Below, piece after piece: positions 3,265 through 17,852 of a stretch of DNA of 64,000 nt. Origin of the DNA: a virus; IMG/VR virus record IMGVR_UViG_3300025110_000009, positions 1 to 64,000 of that record; one strand, written 5' to 3'. The notes beneath the pieces are model-generated. The model ran no database searches. It worked only from the letters and a program-made list of their open reading frames with translations, and had not been told where the DNA came from. Made by a program: the position numbers and the translations under genes. Numbering within the stretch: position 1 is the first letter of the stretch; the number at the start of each line of letters is the position of its first letter.

Positions 3265-3351
3265 TGGTTGCGGGAGGGGGATTTGAACCCCCGAAGCACT
3301 ACGCACCGAATCTTAAGTCCGGCCCCTTTGACCATACTTGGGAATCCCGCA
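3265..3351 (-). tRNA. tRNA-Leu (anticodon UAA)
   Basis: Read on the minus strand, a 7-bp acceptor stem (TGCGGGA/TCCCGCA) is followed by a D stem (CCC/GGG), anticodon stem CCGGA/TTCGG with loop CTTAAGA (anticodon TAA), a long variable arm, and a T arm with GGGGG/CCCCC around TTCAAAT. The discriminator is A and CCA is encoded. The long variable arm and UAA anticodon identify leucine. No intron is visible. It would help decode UUA, a frequent leucine codon in this AT-rich genome. Confidence 0.95.
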
Positions 3352-5152: not shown

Positions 5153-5160
5153 CCATATGG
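5153..5160. repeat. CCATATGG palindrome, copy 0
   Basis: First copy of the palindrome, in context CTACCATATGGTT. It lies 3' of the minus-strand gene that ends at 5281, outside the dense run of the array. Confidence 0.7.
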
Positions 5161-5208
5161 TTTTATCTGGGCTTTGCTTCCAGCAAAAACCTGAAAGAAG
5201 TGGAGAGG

Positions 5209-5238
5209 GAAATAAGGCCTTTAAGCCCTATTCCCCCC
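5209..5238 (-). terminator. Hairpin downstream of the 5281-5790 gene
   Basis: GGGAAATA pairs with TATTCCC across a nested GGC/GCC stem. It stands about 45 bases past the stop of the minus-strand gene, where a 3'-end hairpin is expected. No strong T run follows on the minus strand, so it may be an RNA-stabilising hairpin rather than a terminator. Confidence 0.4.
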
Positions 5239-5280
5239 TCCGGTAGTTGCACCCCGAAACTTAGGTTAACGAAGGAAGAA

Positions 5281-5790
5281 TTACTCATCCTCCGTGGTTA
5301 TGTCGTCATAAGCCGCACAAGCAGCAAGACCGGATAGCGAACCATCCCACTCTCCATCCTTGAAGAGTTGTGTTGCAGCCTTACGAGCCTTTGAAGCAAG
5401 TTCGTTTGCATACTCGTCAGCATCGGAGTAAACAGGGGAACCCTTGCTCTTTCCGTGCTTTCGTAGAAGGGGCTGAGAATACTGCGAAGTAGAGTTAAAG
5501 AACTCTCTTGCTGCCTCTCGGATGTTATCAGTTGCTGAATCCACTACTGCGCGTGCTGCGGCAGGTAGAATGCCCTGATTGCCTCTCTTCCAAGGATAAC
5601 CCGCGTAGGGCTTTAGCATATCCTTAATGCTGTTGGTCAACGAATCACGCGTTGAAGCGTTATTGTCACCAGTCGTTATTAGCATCTGTGCTAGAGTAAC
5701 AACGTCTTCTGGAATGTCTCCAACTTCCGCGTTACCTTCAAGCATAGTGCTTACTTTTATCTTTACTGAATCCCACTCAATATCTTCCAT
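5281..5790 (-). CDS. Array-associated protein A
   Basis: 169 residues, mostly helical and alanine-rich, with acidic ends. It shares with the protein at 7602-8138 the block GD-N-STR (around residues 41-48), HGKSxG followed by Tyr (around 112-120), and a C-terminal A-AT---F--G-W-DGS (about 135-152), so the two are divergent paralogues facing outward from the same repeat region. Codon choice is richer in C/G-ending codons than the operons around it, like the major capsid gene, suggesting high expression. The ribosome site GGTGAT precedes the ATG and the shared promoter lies at 5838-5894. Function unknown; an abundant protein acting on the array or in the virion is an inference. Confidence 0.8.
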   Translation of the reverse strand: MEDIEWDSVKIKVSTMLEGNAEVGDIPEDVVTLAQMLITTGDNNASTRDSLTNSIKDMLKPYAGYPWKRGNQGILPAAARAVVDSATDNIREAAREFFNSTSQYSQPLLRKHGKSKGSPVYSDADEYANELASKARKAATQLFKDGEWDGSLSGLAACAAYDDITTEDE

Positions 5791-5837
5791 CTTTTATCAC
5801 CTATGTGTATTTTCTTTCGCGCCCAAGTTTCGGGGGC

Positions 5838-5894
5838 ATTCTTGGGACAGTCATCGGATATATAAGAGGTTCCGTGCAAAGCAGAACCATATGG
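5838..5894 (-). promoter_or_regulatory. Shared promoter block of array protein A
   Basis: Read on the minus strand: CCATATGG, then GCTTTGC, then ACCTCTTATATATCC, then AAGAATG about 14 bases further on. The same order occurs after palindromes at 7033, 7488 and 8186 on the plus strand. TTATATAT is a good archaeal TATA box, and AAGAATG would mark the start-site region. Confidence 0.7.
5887..5894. repeat. CCATATGG palindrome, copy 1
   Basis: Context AGAACCATATGGTAATG. It is upstream of the minus-strand promoter and also begins the first gene-free unit. Confidence 0.8.
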
Positions 5895-6108
5895 TAATGA
5901 TAGCGTTTTTCAGGGGTCTGAAAGGCCGAGAAGGAAAAACAAGCCGTTTTCTGCGAGGATGTTAAGGTTATTATCGCGTTTTGGAAAAACGAGAAATAAG
6001 AAAAATGGTCAGGGGTCACGGGTGACCGCTAATTCGATTCACAAGGGACGGGTTCCGAATCCTACACTTTAACAGATACGATTAACCCATCTAATTCTAA
6101 TTATACTA
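5895..6108. ncRNA. Array unit 1 (gene-free)
   Basis: A 214-base stretch between two palindromes with no plausible gene. It contains a perfect hairpin GGTCAC/GTGACC at about 6012-6025 and shorter pairings. I find neither of the two conserved boxes described for other units. It could be a structured RNA of the same class or a spacer. Confidence 0.35.
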
Positions 6109-6116
6109 CCATATGG
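6109..6116. repeat. CCATATGG palindrome, copy 2
   Basis: Context TACTACCATATGGTAATG; TTACCATATGGTAA-like extension makes a longer imperfect palindrome. Confidence 0.8.
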
Positions 6117-6405
6117 TAATGATGGAGCAGGAAGGTTCAAGGGGGTGAACATAGGGCTTGTCATAACAAGAACCTAAGTGTTCATAGGTTTATCTCCTTG
6201 TGCCTTGCTAGTGGAATACATACCCTATTTATCGGGAATGATATGGGTTATGCGTTTAGACGCTACTTTAAGCCTCAAACTCTACGCTCTGGTTTATTAA
6301 CTGGCGAGACATTTAGATTGTCACTTTGGTGACCTCTTGTTACTAAACCAGACCGTAGATTTTGCGTCTGTAAACTAGCGTCTAAACGCAAACCACTTTA
6401 TCAAA
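6117..6405 (+). ncRNA. Array unit 2: nested long-range helices with box A
   Basis: Two nested helices are visible. Bases 6251-6265 pair with 6376-6390 over 15 perfect base pairs. Inside, 6282-6296 pair with 6344-6358 (one mismatch in 15). At the centre is box A, ACATTTAGATT (6309-6319), immediately followed by a hairpin GTCAC/GTGAC (6320-6333), flanked by GAG/CTC. This is the arrangement 'outer helix, box A, apical hairpin' repeated in four other places with different stem sequences. Whether RNA or DNA is the active form cannot be told from one strand. Confidence 0.6.
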
Positions 6406-6413
6406 CCATATGG
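6406..6413. repeat. CCATATGG palindrome, copy 3
   Basis: Context ATCAAACCATATGGTATTAG, separating units 2 and 3. Confidence 0.8.
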
Positions 6414-6743
6414 TATTAGGTTACTTAGTCAACGGAGTGTATGCTGTTAATTGCAGCAAGTCGTAGTCCTAAGATTACGAGCCTGAGTGTGGTTGCTGCA
6501 AGTAACAGAATACACTTCGGAGCAAGATAACCATACCAGAGAAAATTGGGGTCTTGAAAGCCTACAAAAATAAGCCCCGTTTTACTGCGTAAAAAGATGA
6601 CTTCTATATGCTTTTTATTAGATTCGCACTATAAGGAGGAGCAACAAGTTGCTCAACAATTCATATGCCCGCTTAGGCTTGAGTTTGAACTCACATATGT
6701 ATTATTCTTATAGCACTAATATACTAAAAAGACCTTTCTACTA
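6414..6743 (+). ncRNA. Array unit 3: two folded elements with box B
   Basis: First half: GAGTGTAT (6435-6442), CTGTTA (6444-6449) and TTGCAGCAA (6451-6459) pair in order with TTGCTGCAA (6493-6501), TAACAG (6503-6508) and ATACACTT (6510-6517), capped by TCGTA/TACGA. Second half: CTATAAG (6629-6635) pairs with CTTATAG (6707-6713), enclosing a hairpin GAGCAAC/GTTGCTC and a CATATG/CATATG stem that holds box B, GCTTAGGCT (6671-6679), followed by hairpin GAGTT/AACTC (6681-6692). This looks like a three-way junction. No gene is present. Confidence 0.6.
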
Positions 6744-6751
6744 CCATATGG
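6744..6751. repeat. CCATATGG palindrome, copy 4
   Basis: Extended here to the 14-base perfect palindrome CTACCATATGGTAG. Confidence 0.8.
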
Positions 6752-7032
6752 TAGGGAGGTTGTGTATAACGTAGTCTCTGGATACAGTTCTACTCCCGCA
6801 TTATGCGCCCAAAGGCGCAATCTAAATGTAAAATGGGGGGAGGTAGAATCTGGATACAGAACAAGTTATAACTGTTTCAACCGTACGTTACCCCATGTCG
6901 GGTTATGTAGATGCGGGCGTTAAACTTGCAAACTGAGGAGTCCACTTCAGGCAACATTTAGATTAGGCCTTTGGCCCTTACACCTGAGTTTAACTCCCTC
7001 TCTTTGCAAGTTTAACTTGCATACTTACTAAA
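6752..7032. ncRNA. Array unit 4: two box A elements in opposite orientation
   Basis: Minus-oriented copy: TTCTAC (6788-6793) pairs with GTAGAA (6843-6848) and encloses hairpin 6805-6818 (GCGCC/GGCGC) next to AATCTAAATGT (6819-6829), the reverse complement of box A. Plus-oriented copy: 6919-6932 pairs with 7003-7016 over 14 perfect base pairs and encloses ACATTTAGATT (6954-6964) followed by hairpin GGCC/GGCC (6966-6976). Between them lies a segment starting GTTACCCCATGTC that has a counterpart in the unit after 9516. Confidence 0.6.
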
Positions 7033-7040
7033 CCATATGG
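7033..7040. repeat. CCATATGG palindrome, copy 5
   Basis: Context CTAAACCATATGGTGGGATA, directly upstream of a shared promoter block. Confidence 0.8.
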
Positions 7041-7095
7041 TGGGATACTTTGTGTAAATTACACCTCATATATTCACCCTTAATCATAAGAATGG
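7041..7095 (+). promoter_or_regulatory. Shared promoter block for a gene-free unit
   Basis: After the palindrome come TACTTTGT, then ACACCTCATATATTCA (7061-7076), then AAGAATGG (7088-7095). This matches the blocks at 7496-7550 and 8194-8246 that precede genes. Here no gene follows, so it predicts transcription of the structured stretch 7090-7487. Confidence 0.65.
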
Positions 7096-7487
7096 TGACC
7101 TTCGCGAGTCACCACGGATTGGCTGAACAACACCATCGTTAGGGTGTAAAGCAACCGTAATGGGCCTTAGCGGGCCACCGAGTCGTTCTTACAAAGGAAA
7201 GGCAGGACAACACCCTTAGCGGGGTATTACGGGGTAAGCGCGGGTTAGAACTGTATACTCAAAGATATGTAGAACTAACGCCCATGCGTCTTTATTGGTA
7301 ATCGAAAGAGAGTCCAATATCCACTTCATTTGCTCAGTCGGGTCTGAGAGTGCCTTAGGAAAGCACGAAACAAAACCCATTCAGACTCCTAGCGGAGAAT
7401 CGTAAGCCTCAGACATGGAATCACGGTAGTTTAGCCCATGTTTAAATCTGAGCAATTCTCCCGTCTGGTTTTTGACACAAAGTAAAA
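7090..7487 (+). ncRNA. Array unit 5: probable transcribed structured RNA
   Basis: No gene in about 400 bases although a promoter block stands upstream. It contains GGTGAC/GTCACC around TTCG (near 7093-7113) and three hairpins whose loops read CTTAGCG or CTAGCG: GGCC/GGCC near 7162, ACCC/GGGT near 7212, and CTCC/GGAG near 7386. The loops are conserved and the stems are not. The two neighbouring box families are absent. Confidence 0.45.
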
Positions 7488-7495
7488 CCATATGG
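7488..7495. repeat. CCATATGG palindrome, copy 6
   Basis: Flanked by an outer inverted repeat CAAAGTAA/TTACTTTG, so the whole site can form a hairpin or cruciform. Confidence 0.8.
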
Positions 7496-7550
7496 TGTGT
7501 TACTTTGTATTAAATACACCTCATATGTTCATACCGGATTATAACAATGG
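7496..7550 (+). promoter_or_regulatory. Promoter block of array protein B
   Basis: TTACTTTGT, then ACACCTCATATGTTCA (7516-7531), then AACAATGG (7543-7550). Same spacing as the copies at 7041 and 8194. CATATGTT is a weaker TATA-like box. The leader to the gene start at 7602 is about 50 bases. Confidence 0.65.
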
Positions 7551-7601
7551 AGAGGAATTTTAGGGGCGCAAACCTATCTATCCTTTTTGGAGATGAATAA
7601 C

Positions 7602-8138
7602 ATGAGCAATGAAATAGATGACAACAAGTGGGAAACAAAGAAAACTGACCTTGAAGAGTGGTTCGCAGTTAATCCAGACCAAAGCGATTTGGCTATGATT
7701 GTGCGTTCAATGTTCGCTCTCGGAGATGCTAACCCTAGCACCCGAAAGAGATATTGGAACTCTATCGTAGGTGTATTCACCGATGTGGCAAATTCGCCTA
7801 TTGGACAGGGCCGCAAGTCCCTTATGGATACTGCAACGAAGTCTTCCTTCGACCTTTACCTTAATGACACCCTTTTCGTGTCCCTACGCGACACCGTTTA
7901 CCCTTTGGTATACGCAACCGCTAGAACACACGGAAAGTCCGGTGGTGTGCTTTATCGCACCCTTGAGGATGGGGCTACGACCTATGCAACGGATGGCGTT
8001 AAGAAGGAGCGATTGTTCCTCAATGCGGCATTCAATGCACACGCAAACGGAGATATGTCAAAGAAATACCATTGGGATGGTTCTTACGAGAACGGTTATC
8101 CTGTGGTATCCTTCATCGGAGGCGATGAGGAGGAATAG
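7602..8138 (+). CDS. Array-associated protein B
   Basis: 178 residues from ATG 7602, which has a GGAG ribosome site nine bases upstream; in-frame TTG 7587 and ATG 7593 are alternatives. It shares GD-NPSTR, THGKSGG followed by Leu-Tyr, and a C-terminal ----WDGS with the divergent gene at 5281-5790. Predicted mostly helical, with an acidic end (GGDEEE). Codon use favours CTC, ACC, TCC and CGC more than neighbours, as in the capsid gene, implying high expression. It is isolated between palindromes 6 and 7 with its own promoter. Function unknown; it may bind the repeats or their transcripts. Confidence 0.8.
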   Translation: MSNEIDDNKWETKKTDLEEWFAVNPDQSDLAMIVRSMFALGDANPSTRKRYWNSIVGVFTDVANSPIGQGRKSLMDTATKSSFDLYLNDTLFVSLRDTVYPLVYATARTHGKSGGVLYRTLEDGATTYATDGVKKERLFLNAAFNAHANGDMSKKYHWDGSYENGYPVVSFIGGDEEE

Positions 8139-8185
8139 GTGGGTTTTGCGCCCCTCTCCACCTCTCCGGTTTAACGCAAAGCAAA

Positions 8186-8193
8186 CCATATGG
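8186..8193. repeat. CCATATGG palindrome, copy 7
   Basis: Flanked by an outer inverted repeat GCAAAGCA/TGCTTTGC. Compared with copy 6 (CAAAGTAA/TTACTTTG), both arms change together, so the pairing is preserved. Confidence 0.85.
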
Positions 8194-8246
8194 TAGTGTG
8201 CTTTGCTAACACTCACCTGATATATTCATCTCCCAACATAAGAATG
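8194..8246 (+). promoter_or_regulatory. Promoter block of the 8244-9468 operon
   Basis: GTGCTTTGC, then ACTCACCTGATATATTCA (8211-8228), then AAGAATG (8240-8246). GATATATT is TATA-like. Start of transcription near 8245 would coincide with the first ATG of the gene, implying a leaderless or nearly leaderless message. Confidence 0.7.
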
Positions 8247-8447
8247 ATTCAAATGATGAACGAGAATAATGAAACAATACCAATAACTGAGCCAAAATAC
8301 GTGCTAGAAGTTAAGCATATGAAATCGGGGTCTGCCCTTGTTCTATGTATTAGCAAACTACGGGTATCTGGTGATAACCTAAAGGAAGTAATGGCTGATA
8401 TGCAATCTGCACTATCAGACTACGTTGAAGCGATAGGTGATGAATGA
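8244..8447 (+). CDS. Hypothetical 67-residue protein
   Basis: Start candidates are ATG 8244, 8253 and 8256; I use 8244 because it coincides with the expected transcription start. The longer open frame back to 8190 would cross the promoter and is rejected. The protein has strands (KYVLEVKHMKSGSALVLCI) followed by a helix (NLKEVMADMQSALSDYVEAIG), an alpha/beta mini-fold. First gene of a small operon ending at 9468. No family recognised. Confidence 0.6.
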   Translation: MIQMMNENNETIPITEPKYVLEVKHMKSGSALVLCISKLRVSGDNLKEVMADMQSALSDYVEAIGDE

Positions 8448-9166
8448 TGACTATCTATGAGAGAAAGATGGAAATAGTCTTTGATACAGATATGTCAGAA
8501 GTCAACTTTCACCCTAATAAGGTGCAGAGTATGTTGTATGATAGAGGCATAGCACAGACTAGTAACTATAACTATGATAATCCTGAGGATGATGCTAGAT
8601 TATACGGCTTTCAATCAACGGACGATACAACCACTACTTATGCAGTAACTGATGAAAACGGTCAAGTCCTTATGGAGTTAGATTACAGTAGTCAAGCAAG
8701 ACTAGCACAGAAGGGATTGACAGACTATGGTATTAATACTGATGTAGCAGTAGTTCAGACTACAAAGACTATGGATAAGTGGATGCGCGTAAGAGGCCCA
8801 TATCTAGGTATTTACTTTGGGCCTACTAATGGCACACAGTCCTTTTATGGTAGAGCCATGCTGAAATATGACGATAACGTAACTTTGTTAACAAGACTTG
8901 ATAATTACGGTCATACCTACACTCTAACCTTTTGGATTACTTATGAAGTGGAGTCAATAACAGATAGAAAGGCAGTAGAAGATAGAGTTGTTCAAGTCCC
9001 ATTGGCAGAGATGCTAAGAATACGCAAGGCAGTAGAAAGTACCCTTACAGAATTAAGTGCTTGTGAAGTAACACATACTGTTGATTGCGAAACGAAGATA
9101 ATTAGTGAGGCTTCATATCAATGCTCCCCAGAAACAACTAAACTTGTAATGGGGGAAGAGGAATGA
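8444..9166 (+). CDS. Hypothetical 240-residue protein
   Basis: Begins MMTIYERKMEIVF; the preceding stop region doubles as the ribosome site GGTGATGA. A strand-rich middle (TTYAVTDENGQVLMELDYS, LLTRLDNYGHTYTLTFWITYEV) and a helical C-terminal third with several Cys are visible. No known motif. It is coupled to the gene before (ATGATG) and after (ATGA). Confidence 0.75.
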   Translation: MMTIYERKMEIVFDTDMSEVNFHPNKVQSMLYDRGIAQTSNYNYDNPEDDARLYGFQSTDDTTTTYAVTDENGQVLMELDYSSQARLAQKGLTDYGINTDVAVVQTTKTMDKWMRVRGPYLGIYFGPTNGTQSFYGRAMLKYDDNVTLLTRLDNYGHTYTLTFWITYEVESITDRKAVEDRVVQVPLAEMLRIRKAVESTLTELSACEVTHTVDCETKIISEASYQCSPETTKLVMGEEE

Positions 9167-9300
9167 AATATACTGCTTTCTGTGAATGTGGTTTTGAAAC
9201 CCCTCCTGTTGAGTATGATGAAGAAATTGATTGGGGCTTGTTACAGGCCCACCAAGAGTTTTGTAAAATATATGCTATTGGTAAAAAGGAGGAAGAGTAA
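9163..9300 (+). CDS. 45-residue small protein with Cys motif
   Basis: Begins MKYTAFCECGFETPP and ends KKEEE. CEC and a later His/Cys (HQEFC) resemble a C2HC zinc knuckle. Overlaps the previous stop (ATGA) and the next start (TAATG). Function unknown. Confidence 0.6.
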   Translation: MKYTAFCECGFETPPVEYDEEIDWGLLQAHQEFCKIYAIGKKEEE

Positions 9301-9386
9301 TGAGAGATACTCTTCCTCCTGATTGTAAAGAATGTGATTCCTCGTTCTATTGGTGCTGGTTTAATGGATGTAAAAATAATGATTGA
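9300..9386 (+). CDS. 28-residue cysteine-rich peptide
   Basis: MRDTLPPDCKECDSSFYW followed by CWFNGCKNND. CxxC and a second Cys pair suggest zinc or disulfide cross-linking. Preceded by GGAGGAAGAG, a strong ribosome site. Coupled on both sides. Confidence 0.5.
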   Translation: MRDTLPPDCKECDSSFYWCWFNGCKNND

Positions 9387-9468
9387 GATATGTAATAACT
9401 GCGGAATGGAATTAGGCGATTTAAGAGTAAAAATGGGTAATTGCTGTAAAATCGTAACAATGAAGTAA
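9379..9468 (+). CDS. 29-residue zinc-ribbon peptide
   Basis: Begins MIEICNNCGMELGDL and contains CNNC and a CC pair 15 residues later. It overlaps the preceding peptide by eight bases. A CCCG/CGGG hairpin follows at 9473-9484 and the next palindrome at 9508. Confidence 0.5.
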   Translation: MIEICNNCGMELGDLRVKMGNCCKIVTMK

Positions 9469-9472
9469 GTCC

Positions 9473-9484
9473 CGTTATCGGGCA
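9473..9484 (+). terminator. Hairpin after the 8244-9468 operon
   Basis: CCCG TTAT CGGG directly after the last stop. No long T run follows, so termination may depend on the palindrome region 30 bases on, or this is a 3'-end stabiliser. Confidence 0.4.
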
Positions 9485-9507
9485 TTCTGTTAGCAAAGCA
9501 CAGCCTA

Positions 9508-9515
9508 CCATATGG
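9508..9515. repeat. CCATATGG palindrome, copy 8
   Basis: Extended to CTACCATATGGTAG as in copy 4. Confidence 0.8.
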
Positions 9516-9791
9516 TAGTGAGGTTAAATGAACGAAGTGAGATAACCTGAAGGGAACCAAGTATGAACGCTTAAGCGTTAATCTAAATGTCAAATACAGG
9601 TTCCGTTCAGGAGATACTACGGAGTGAATGTTGGGATTAACCGAATGTTACCCGATGTCTGGTTATGTAGGGTTGTGCTTAAGGTGAGTAACCCGGTAGA
9701 ATTTCCAACACTACCGCTTAGGCTCGTTCTTAAGAACAGCCGTGTTTAACATTCTACATAGGTTACCACCTTAAACCAACCACTTACTAAA
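9516..9791. ncRNA. Array unit 6: one box A and one box B element
   Basis: Minus-oriented box A: GGAACC (9553-9558) pairs with GGTTCC (9599-9604), enclosing hairpin AACGC/GCGTT (9566-9579) and AATCTAAATGT (9580-9590). Plus-oriented box B: GTAGAAT (9696-9702) pairs with ATTCTAC (9751-9757), inside it AACAC (9707-9711) with GTGTT (9742-9746), then GCTTAGGCT (9716-9724) and hairpin GTTC/GAAC (9726-9737). Organisation parallels unit 4. No gene. Confidence 0.6.
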
Positions 9792-9799
9792 CCATATGG
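9792..9799. repeat. CCATATGG palindrome, copy 9
   Basis: Context TACTAAACCATATGGTTGTTAA, same left flank as copy 5. Confidence 0.8.
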
Positions 9800-10107
9800 T
9801 TGTTAATTAAAAAAGAAAAGGTCTGGTGAGTTGTGATGATGTTAACATAATCTTTTAGCGTACGATAACAGCCGAAGGTAGTTAGCGTACATAAGAGAGT
9901 CGTAAGACTCAGCCTAAGCGGTACTGTCTTGATAAAAGTTTATGATTAGCATCTGAACTGTTTGAGACAGACCATAAATCAAAAGAACCCGATATGGGAT
10001 TATCTTGCTAGGAGTAAGGCCTAAACAGTTACGCACCCACATTTAGATTTAGACTCTTAGGAGCCTAAAGTGCGACATTGTTTATGCCTTACTCCATGAC
10101 TAAGTAA
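9800..10107. ncRNA. Array unit 7: box B (minus) and box A (plus)
   Basis: Minus-oriented box B: hairpin GAGTC/GACTC (9897-9910) followed by AGCCTAAGC (9911-9919), with a weak GTAC/GTAC outer pairing. Plus-oriented box A: GGAGTAAGGC (10011-10020) pairs with GCCTTACTCC (10086-10095), then CGCAC with GTGCG, enclosing ACATTTAGATT (10039-10049) and an overlapping hairpin with TTTAG-CTC/GAG-CTAAA arms. No gene. Confidence 0.6.
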
Positions 10108-10115
10108 CCATATGG
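10108..10115. repeat. CCATATGG palindrome, copy 10
   Basis: Context AAGTAACCATATGGTAGTGTAATG. Confidence 0.8.
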
Positions 10116-10452
10116 TAGTGTAATGAAATGTATGTAAACGTAGAGGATTGGAGAGGCAGAGTATTGTGCAGGGATTGCTAAAGCAAGAGTCTAAACGTCC
10201 CGGAATTTACTCTGCTCTCCAATGCAACGGAGTGAATACATTTCATGTTAGTGTAACGGCATATATCCCCATTTATCGGGCAATGTCTTATATGGACATT
10301 TGGGTATTACAAGGAAGTAAACGACCAAGCACCCTGCCGCTGTGTTAACTACGAACTACCGCTTAGGCTCTATTTATGAATAGAGTTCTATTAACACCGC
10401 GCAAGTGCTGGCGTTTACTCCTTGTAATACCGTAATACGTCCTAATAGACAA
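10116..10452 (+). ncRNA. Array unit 8: two long hairpin elements, the second with box B
   Basis: First element: 10123-10133 pairs perfectly with 10236-10246 (11 bp); inside it 10147-10163 pairs with 10208-10223 (16 bp, one bulge). Second: 10304-10323 pairs with 10412-10430 (19 bp, one bulge); inside, GTGTTAA (10342-10348) pairs with TTAACAC (10391-10397), enclosing GCTTAGGCT (10361-10369) and hairpin CTATT/AATAG (10370-10383). A 66-codon frame at 10148-10348 crosses both helices and is rejected as a gene. Confidence 0.65.
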
Positions 10453-10460
10453 CCATATGG
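10453..10460. repeat. CCATATGG palindrome, copy 11 (last)
   Basis: Context AGACAACCATATGGAACGATG. The array ends after one more folded element; a partial site (CCATATGC) lies near 10599. Confidence 0.8.
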
Positions 10461-17202: not shown

Positions 17203-17852
17203 AGCGAAGAAGATGTAAATTATGTAATCACGAAGAACGTGATGACTTAGAAGCACAATTAGAAACAATGGCAATTACTGCCGATGACTTAGATAACAGA
17301 ATGGATTGGCCTAGCGGCACAACTGCAAGGCATCATAGAAACCATATGGGGGATTATGTAGATGCTTCTAATCCTCGGTGTAGTTTCTGCATACATGAGT
17401 TAAGAGGTGAATTAGAACAGCAACTACATAGTGGTGCTGTTACACCCAAAGGCGTGTCTATGCTTTTGAAATGTTCAGAAGAACAGGTAAAGAGGCACAT
17501 GAGGAAACATCTTCAGCCATTGGTTCAGAAGGCGGCGGCAAGTATTATAGCCGTGAAAGAGGTAGACGAGATAGACAGTCTATCGAAGAACATAACCCGT
17601 TTGGAGCAAAAGATTGATGTTCTCTTTGAAGAGGACGAATTGCATCCAAAATATATTGATAGTTTGACCAAGTTGGCAAAAGAAATTAGGGAAAGTCTGA
17701 GATACTTAATGGAATTTAAAGGCAAGTTAGTTCACAAGAGACAGGATACAATCATAGTAGCGCAAATGCAGATTGTTCAAGAAGTATTAGCACAGAATCA
17801 TCCACAAGTTTGGTTAGATGTAAAACAAAAGATGGAGGAGAAAATGCAATGA
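17196..17852 (+). CDS. Candidate small terminase subunit with two zinc/HTH modules
   Basis: 218 residues from ATG 17196. Two tandem modules begin CKLCNHEERDDLEAQL and CSFCIHELRGELEQQL; each is followed by a helix-turn-helix-like stretch ending in His pairs (ARHHRNH; VKRHMRKH). This Cys2-HTH-His2 pattern is common in phage small terminase and packaging-site proteins. The remainder is a long helical region (DSLSKNITRLEQKIDVLFEE) suited to oligomerisation. It lies 11 kb before the large subunit, so the assignment rests on the fold pattern. No tag. Confidence 0.55.
   Translation: MVKRRRCKLCNHEERDDLEAQLETMAITADDLDNRMDWPSGTTARHHRNHMGDYVDASNPRCSFCIHELRGELEQQLHSGAVTPKGVSMLLKCSEEQVKRHMRKHLQPLVQKAAASIIAVKEVDEIDSLSKNITRLEQKIDVLFEEDELHPKYIDSLTKLAKEIRESLRYLMEFKGKLVHKRQDTIIVAQMQIVQEVLAQNHPQVWLDVKQKMEEKMQ

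Follow-up and report, generated by a model that had tools for sequence, protein, structure and literature searches.

What kind of element are the Box A hairpins of an uncultivated virus: a new family of structured RNA, or a structure that acts at the level of DNA? They lie in the IMG/VR record IMGVR_UViG_3300025110_000009, a virus record of 80,534 nt whose positions 1 to 64,000 form the stretch analysed here (the window). A preliminary description had reported five copies of a box, ACATTTAGATT, each followed by a hairpin and enclosed by an outer helix. Our explanation, which we hold at slightly better than even confidence, is that each of these hairpins is one of two inverted arms of a quasi-palindromic, non-coding DNA module in a ACCATATGGT-delimited cassette array at a divergent, origin-like hub, with the DNA action, protein site, reshuffling and replication role set out below. 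Support is good for the anatomy of the array and for its shuffling; we infer which protein and which enzyme are involved and what the system is for.

Box arms in a palindrome-bounded array

All five exact copies of ACATTTAGATT were recovered where they had been reported, at 6309(+), 6819–6829(−), 6954(+), 9580–9590(−) and 10039(+). Dinucleotide shuffles yielded 0.16 copies on average and two at most. Folding placed a hairpin after the box and an outer helix around both in each of the five arms, with stems that vary among copies, which supports a selected, covarying structure with a conserved box. For the arm at 9580, the optimum under RNA parameters has a shifted inner stem, and approximately the described stem appears with DNA parameters only. 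The box proved neither invariant nor exclusive to these five places: sister arms carry CCGCTTAGGCT, ACGTTTAGACT, ACACTTAGGTT, ACACTCAGGCT or other variants at the same position, which gives 12 such arms in six modules. The extent first assigned to the element, 6251–10095, lies inside the array and is too narrow, as the array spans 5153–10460, genes included.

The modules are bounded by a shared ten-base palindrome, ACCATATGGT, which occurs 12 times in this array, and every junction has the form ..CC-ATAT-GG... We found CCATATGG 13 times in the window, where 0.73 occurrences were expected. Twelve of these lie within the array, at 5153, 5887, 6109, 6406, 6744, 7033, 7488, 8186, 9508, 9792, 10108 and 10453, and delimit 11 modules. 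The 13th, at 17342–17349, falls outside the array within a predicted gene and is likely due to chance; the remaining 16.5 kb of the record holds no further CCATATGG. Palindrome-bounded arrays are present in at least about 60 viral loci, most of them found by pattern scan. Every relative recovered through homology to P1, a protein encoded in the first module, has an array with the same palindrome adjoining P1. The relatives used below are A (L011), B (L012), D (L014), E (L019), F (L020) and G (L084+L021), with W for the window record.

The 12 box arms of the window occupy six modules of about 300 nt, each with one box on either strand. Module 3 (6109..6413) carries ACACTTAGGTT at 6171–6181(−) and ACATTTAGATT at 6309–6319(+), and module 4 (6406..6751) ACACTCAGGCT at 6480–6490(−) and CCGCTTAGGCT at 6669–6679(+). 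In module 5 (6744..7040), both boxes are ACATTTAGATT, at 6819–6829(−) and 6954–6964(+). On the far side of the array, module 9 (9508..9799) combines ACATTTAGATT at 9580–9590(−) with CCGCTTAGGCT at 9714–9724(+), module 10 (9792..10115) CCGCTTAGGCT at 9911–9921(−) with ACATTTAGATT at 10039–10049(+), and module 11 (10108..10460) ACGTTTAGACT at 10188–10198(−) with CCGCTTAGGCT at 10359–10369(+).

The general motif is degenerate, N-C-xy-TTNG-y'x'-T followed by a hairpin, where xy and y'x' co-vary and ACATTTAGATT is one variant. We scanned the array and three relatives with the pattern N-C-R-Y-T-N-N-G-R-Y-T and obtained matches at 41 distinct places. Twenty-seven of them had a perfect hairpin, 4 bp or longer, within 3 nt downstream, compared with 3.65 expected when the downstream bases were shuffled. 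The 27 do not include the arms at 6480 and 10039, whose inner stems are mismatched. The pair flanking the four-base loop of the box (y-y') was T-A or C-G in 27/27 cases, and the next pair outward held in 24/27 (Fisher p=2×10−7 and 5×10−5, values that are optimistic, the sequences being related). Four combinations recur: AT/AT, GC/GC, GT/AC and AC/GT. Box strand followed the position of the arm without exception in this clade: among the arms with a perfect inner stem, plus-strand boxes were seen in all 14 that lie in right halves and minus-strand boxes in all 13 that lie in left halves.

Comparison of homologous modules (the W-A and W-B groups except module 5) gave 41 double changes, 10 changes to G-T, five to A-C and 18 others. 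These counts support the structure and do not tell the strand. A kissing interaction between the left and right boxes of a module was rejected by inspection, as their changes are mismatched and the covariation is internal to each box. A search with Rfam covariance models returned chance-level matches only for modules 3–5 and 9–11, in line with the earlier statement that no described RNA family has this layout; in particular, the box arms are not manA. The structural modules of L020 and L028 show another style of box, ACGCTWAGT, often with a small hairpin with loop GCTWA. A GAARYG-like sequence follows, and there is one box per module, in either orientation.

Folding of the two strands

We compared sense and antisense folding of the 12 two-arm modules with that of shuffled sequences, and used pieces of E. 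coli rRNA and RNase P RNA as control. The modules folded 4–12 standard deviations better than shuffles on both strands (z about −9/−8 for module 3). The mean difference in z between strands was −0.13 in the modules and +0.85 in the control, the gap in raw folding energy 2–6% versus 18%, and the share of G-U pairs 7–8% versus 15%. This comparison replaced a strand-symmetric stem counter (G-T versus A-C mismatches) that had seemed to indicate DNA and was discarded because rRNA controls gave the same ratio. Moreover, with one box-bearing arm on each strand, a single transcript cannot show both boxes in the same sense. The lack of strand preference and the minus/plus placement of the boxes point to dyad-symmetric DNA rather than to an RNA family. 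Our results favour a two-fold symmetric structure at the DNA level and are also compatible with RNA from both strands.

Could the structural modules nevertheless encode trans-acting or cis-regulatory RNAs, as the preliminary description would imply, each transcript folding into two arms in which the right-arm box pairs with the complementary left-arm sequence? The covarying structure is very strong, a left arm does hold a box complement on any one strand, so that arm–arm pairing is possible, and the same array contains a real RNA of the manA type. We nevertheless consider this explanation unlikely. Besides the symmetric folding, the halved use of G-U pairs relative to rRNA and the constant minus/plus orientation, changes in a module's left box are not matched by changes in its right box, and inspection of all flanks showed that the structural modules do not have the RCTTTG-TATA ends of transcribed modules described below, an observation that concerns this promoter type alone. 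More generally, covariation found in metagenomic DNA, even when strong, is not in itself proof of RNA, and the strand symmetry of folding can discriminate between the two.

The manA-like RNA lies at 7093–7327 in module 6 (7033..7495, plus strand), which has RCTTTG at both ends, a GG-started hairpin detected at the 7488 end and a TATA-like box near 7068. Model positions 1–192 of manA (Rfam RF01745; Weinberg et al. 2010, PMC2864571) aligned over their full length in W, B, D, E and F (E-values 10−4 to 10−9), with the conserved loops and the consensus structure retained. The scores were 42.6 bits in W, 46.9 in B, 44.0 in E, 32.0 in D and 46.5 in F, all below the Rfam gathering threshold of 55.2. 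Group I intron, RNase P and tRNA-like assignments of module 6 were unsupported, manA being its sole Rfam match. The RNA stands alone in its module behind a predicted palindrome–hairpin–TATA promoter of its own.

Transcribed modules, module exchange and the divergent hub

Statistics over 322 modules among the array loci listed separated two classes. In one, CTTTG lies near both ends, the median length is 683 nt and most members are coding; in the other, CTTTG is missing, the median is 166 nt and most members are non-coding. RCTTTG was present at both ends of 146 modules and at neither end of 138, and 38 were mixed. The base before CTTTG at one end of a module was correlated with that at its other end (odds ratio 5.1, p=9×10−6), and uncorrelated with that across the palindrome (odds ratio 1.7, p=0.35). 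The both-or-neither excess and this correlation indicate that RCTTTG is a property of the module and not of the site. A perfect hairpin beginning at the palindrome's own GG was found at 133/322 RCTTTG ends (8 expected), with 64 distinct stems. Transcribed-type modules, in the window those of P1, P2, P3/P4 and the manA-like RNA, carry terminal inverted repeats, with a covarying hairpin that contains RCTTTG at both ends. Neighbouring coding modules were oppositely oriented in 18/64 cases.

Among coding modules, a TATA-like sequence abutted the end hairpin at 44/102 5' ends versus 15/102 3' ends. This bias agrees with a promoter–operator landscape in which ACCATATGGT would be an operator at the head of each early gene, homologous recombination between promoter repeats would cause shuffling as a side effect, and the folded modules would be insulators or terminators. 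The haloarchaeal virus HGTV-1 and T4-type phages offer precedents for shuffling-linked cassettes of promoter and inverted repeat, as far as PMC3950731 describes them. We find such a landscape as doubtful as regulatory RNAs, however: the RCTTTG hairpins, a property of the module, also occupy its promoterless end, non-coding modules without promoters are bounded by the palindrome too, 10 bp is short for homologous recombination, and modules invert.

Inversions were seen in the close relatives F and G, which come from different samples and provide a natural experiment in cassette shuffling (L020 versus L084+L021). Their P1 modules are 97.8% identical and most other matched modules 87–97%. In G, three modules of F (the one with manA, F8 and F10) have the opposite orientation, and F9 and the F2–F3 block lie at other places. 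Most modules are homologous end to end, from palindrome to palindrome; the exceptions are F11 (75%), F3 and F14 (partial matches) and some G modules that lack a full counterpart. Module 10 of W has its homologue at another array position in B, and P2, the second array protein, is inverted in F relative to the other relatives. Whole modules are thus gained, lost, moved and inverted with breakpoints at the palindromes. In the near-identical pair W/A, a single half-module differs, the left half of module 5 (window 6744–7040 versus L011 7164–7451), which in A is replaced by an arm resembling the left arm of module 4. Half-modules are therefore exchanged too.

A closing helix joining the two ends of a structural module was rejected, as we counted 1.26 paired bases versus 1.22 after permutation and no terminal pairing beyond GG/CC. 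That the folded modules are nested transposable elements similar to miniature inverted-repeat transposable elements (MITEs) or repetitive extragenic palindromic (REP) elements, ending in GG..CC, flanked by a duplicated ATAT target and piled up at a preferred palindromic target, is very improbable: the uniform junctions, the terminal inverted repeats of transcribed modules and the REP-like layout of a tetranucleotide with hairpins in inverted pairs would suit it, but this near-absence of terminal pairing, the lack of a Y1 transposase or known recombinase in nine records, the confinement of the modules to one hub (12/13 palindromes of the 80.5-kb record) and the absence of P1 relatives from GTDB genomes do not.

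The array is a switch point of the genome. Genes to its left run leftward with negative GC (guanine–cytosine) skew, and genes to its right run rightward with positive skew, a result obtained at every locus with enough flank on both sides, in about ten lineages. A tRNA-Leu (TAA) gene lies near the array at 3265–3351(−), and tRNA genes are also close by in other array-bearing loci. The virus encodes PolB, an ERCC4-HHH nuclease, a PD-(D/E)XK nuclease, an ATP-dependent ligase, a portal, a terminase and a tail tube protein. Judged by this gene set and the TATA-like promoters, it is probably a tailed virus with an archaeal host.

Array proteins come from modules 1, 7 and 8. Module 1 (5153–5894) has the RCTTTG hairpin at both ends, a TATA-like box at the 5887 end and the P1 gene (5281..5790, minus strand, 169 aa). 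P2 (7587..8138, plus strand, 183 aa), encoded in module 7 (7488–8193), is a paralogue with 24% identity to P1, and the P1/P2 family is present in modules of 38 of the array loci listed. P1 was predicted to be all-helical (predicted local distance difference test score, pLDDT, 74). Its model matched two unnamed viral proteins in BFVD with a probability of 0.98–1.0. Module 8 (8186–9515, plus strand, RCTTTG at both ends) encodes P3 (8190–8447, an open reading frame of 85 aa) and P4 (8444–9166, 240 aa); P4 was found in 11 of the listed loci by module clustering and gave no match in a fold search of the PDB. Short acidic C-terminal tails (EEE, DEEE, EEEE) occur on P1, P2, P4 and several small open reading frames, for example 1304–1594. 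Module 2 (5887..6116) is non-coding and folds weakly (z 0.35/−1.21).

According to the dyad-symmetric DNA explanation, the structural modules would act as DNA, and their arms, as a cruciform or as single-stranded hairpins, would give a protein encoded in the array a landing site with two-fold symmetry; the best candidate for this protein is the P1/P2 family. The modules would function in either orientation, so that inversion is tolerated, and recombination at the palindromes would reshuffle genes and structural modules alike. Given the hub position, replication initiation or its control would be their likeliest job.

Several results weigh against this explanation. The skew flip fits a replication origin and is confounded by gene direction. 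A tyrosine recombinase (PF00589) and a serine recombinase (PF00239) were each found in 0/9 records, which are possibly incomplete, and a Y1 (HUH) transposase (PF01797) was likewise found in 0/9; a host enzyme could take its part. P1 has no fold or family match in the PDB or Pfam. The manA-like RNA means that RNA functions exist in the array, and before composition correction the folding energy of the plus strand was slightly better on average. Finally, fold strength differs among lineages (L011, L012, L014, L019, L020 and L028 compared), with a mean z of about −6 in the W/B/D clade and about −2 in E/F/H; the folded form may therefore be an elaboration of one lineage.

Comparison with known systems

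We suggest, as a tentative proposal that falls short of even odds, that this is a previously undescribed cassette-shuffling system of tailed viruses, in which exchange takes place at the symmetric 10-bp palindrome, the P1/P2 family is or recruits recombination or replication machinery, and purely structural DNA cassettes with inverted box-hairpin arms work both ways at a replication hub. If true, it would give tailed viruses of an uncultured host lineage a concrete, testable route to gain, move and flip small genes: exchange at a fixed palindrome, transcribed cassettes marked by a pair of end signals, and cassettes of folded DNA located where the genome diverges. Arrays of this kind are present in dozens of viral contigs and have in common a protein family without known relative. 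Among known systems, the cassettes of T4-type phages, which we compare through second-hand descriptions, and the promoter palindromes of HGTV-1 come closest. We found no described counterpart of the folded non-coding modules or of the P1/P2 family, and none of strict palindromes around coding and non-coding modules, of paired inverted end hairpins as a mark of transcribed modules, of inversion, or of dyad-symmetric folded modules that carry paired box arms.

In integron attC sites, pdif modules and shufflons, discrete modules are exchanged or inverted at short shared sites. The array resembles them in this exchange and inversion, and differs in that no integrase, Xer-type recombinase or resolvase was found in the nine records and that its site is a symmetric 10-mer. 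REP elements and bacterial interspersed mosaic elements (BIMEs) combine a tetranucleotide with hairpins in inverted pairs. The TTNG box with its hairpin, minus on the left and plus on the right, recalls these and IS200/IS605-like elements, a resemblance of layout only; the nine records differ in having no Y1 (HUH) transposase. Module 6 is like manA RNA in its full-length match to the 192-position model at 32–47 bits, and unlike it in scoring below the curated 55.2 bits and in standing alone in its own promoter module. The manA RNA occurs in marine sequences and cyanophages (PMC2864571, PMC9964418).

HGTV-1, a tailed virus of haloarchaea, has a conserved inverted repeat by a TATA-like box before many small open reading frames, and shuffling was proposed (Sencilo et al., as reported in PMC3950731). 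By that report it shares with the array a tailed virus as carrier, archaeal there and probably so here, an inverted repeat next to a TATA-like box and the proposed shuffling. Its genome (KC292026) has its own motif, CTCCTCGTGGCACGAGGAG, with TATA boxes, and co-oriented genes; CCATATGG is not enriched there (3 copies in about 130 kb), and nothing equivalent to the folded two-arm modules was seen in it. Because its motif differs, we do not count HGTV-1 among the viruses with this palindrome system.

The promoter early–stem-loop cassettes (PeSLs) of T4-type phages (Arbiol et al. 2010; Comeau et al. 2014; both as described in PMC3950731 and PMC4503421) also place a promoter and stem-loop at the head of small accessory genes, with modular shuffling between close relatives. 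The transcribed modules of the array have the layout of PeSLs and HGTV-1, a GG-started RCTTTG hairpin followed by a TATA-like box, and also their shuffling, with permutation and inversion between F and G and a moved module between W and B. Measured against those second-hand accounts of PeSLs, the array differs in the strict palindrome at both ends of every module, in modules that also invert, in the inverted, paired end hairpins of transcribed modules, in folded non-coding modules that alternate with genes, and in TATA-like promoters.

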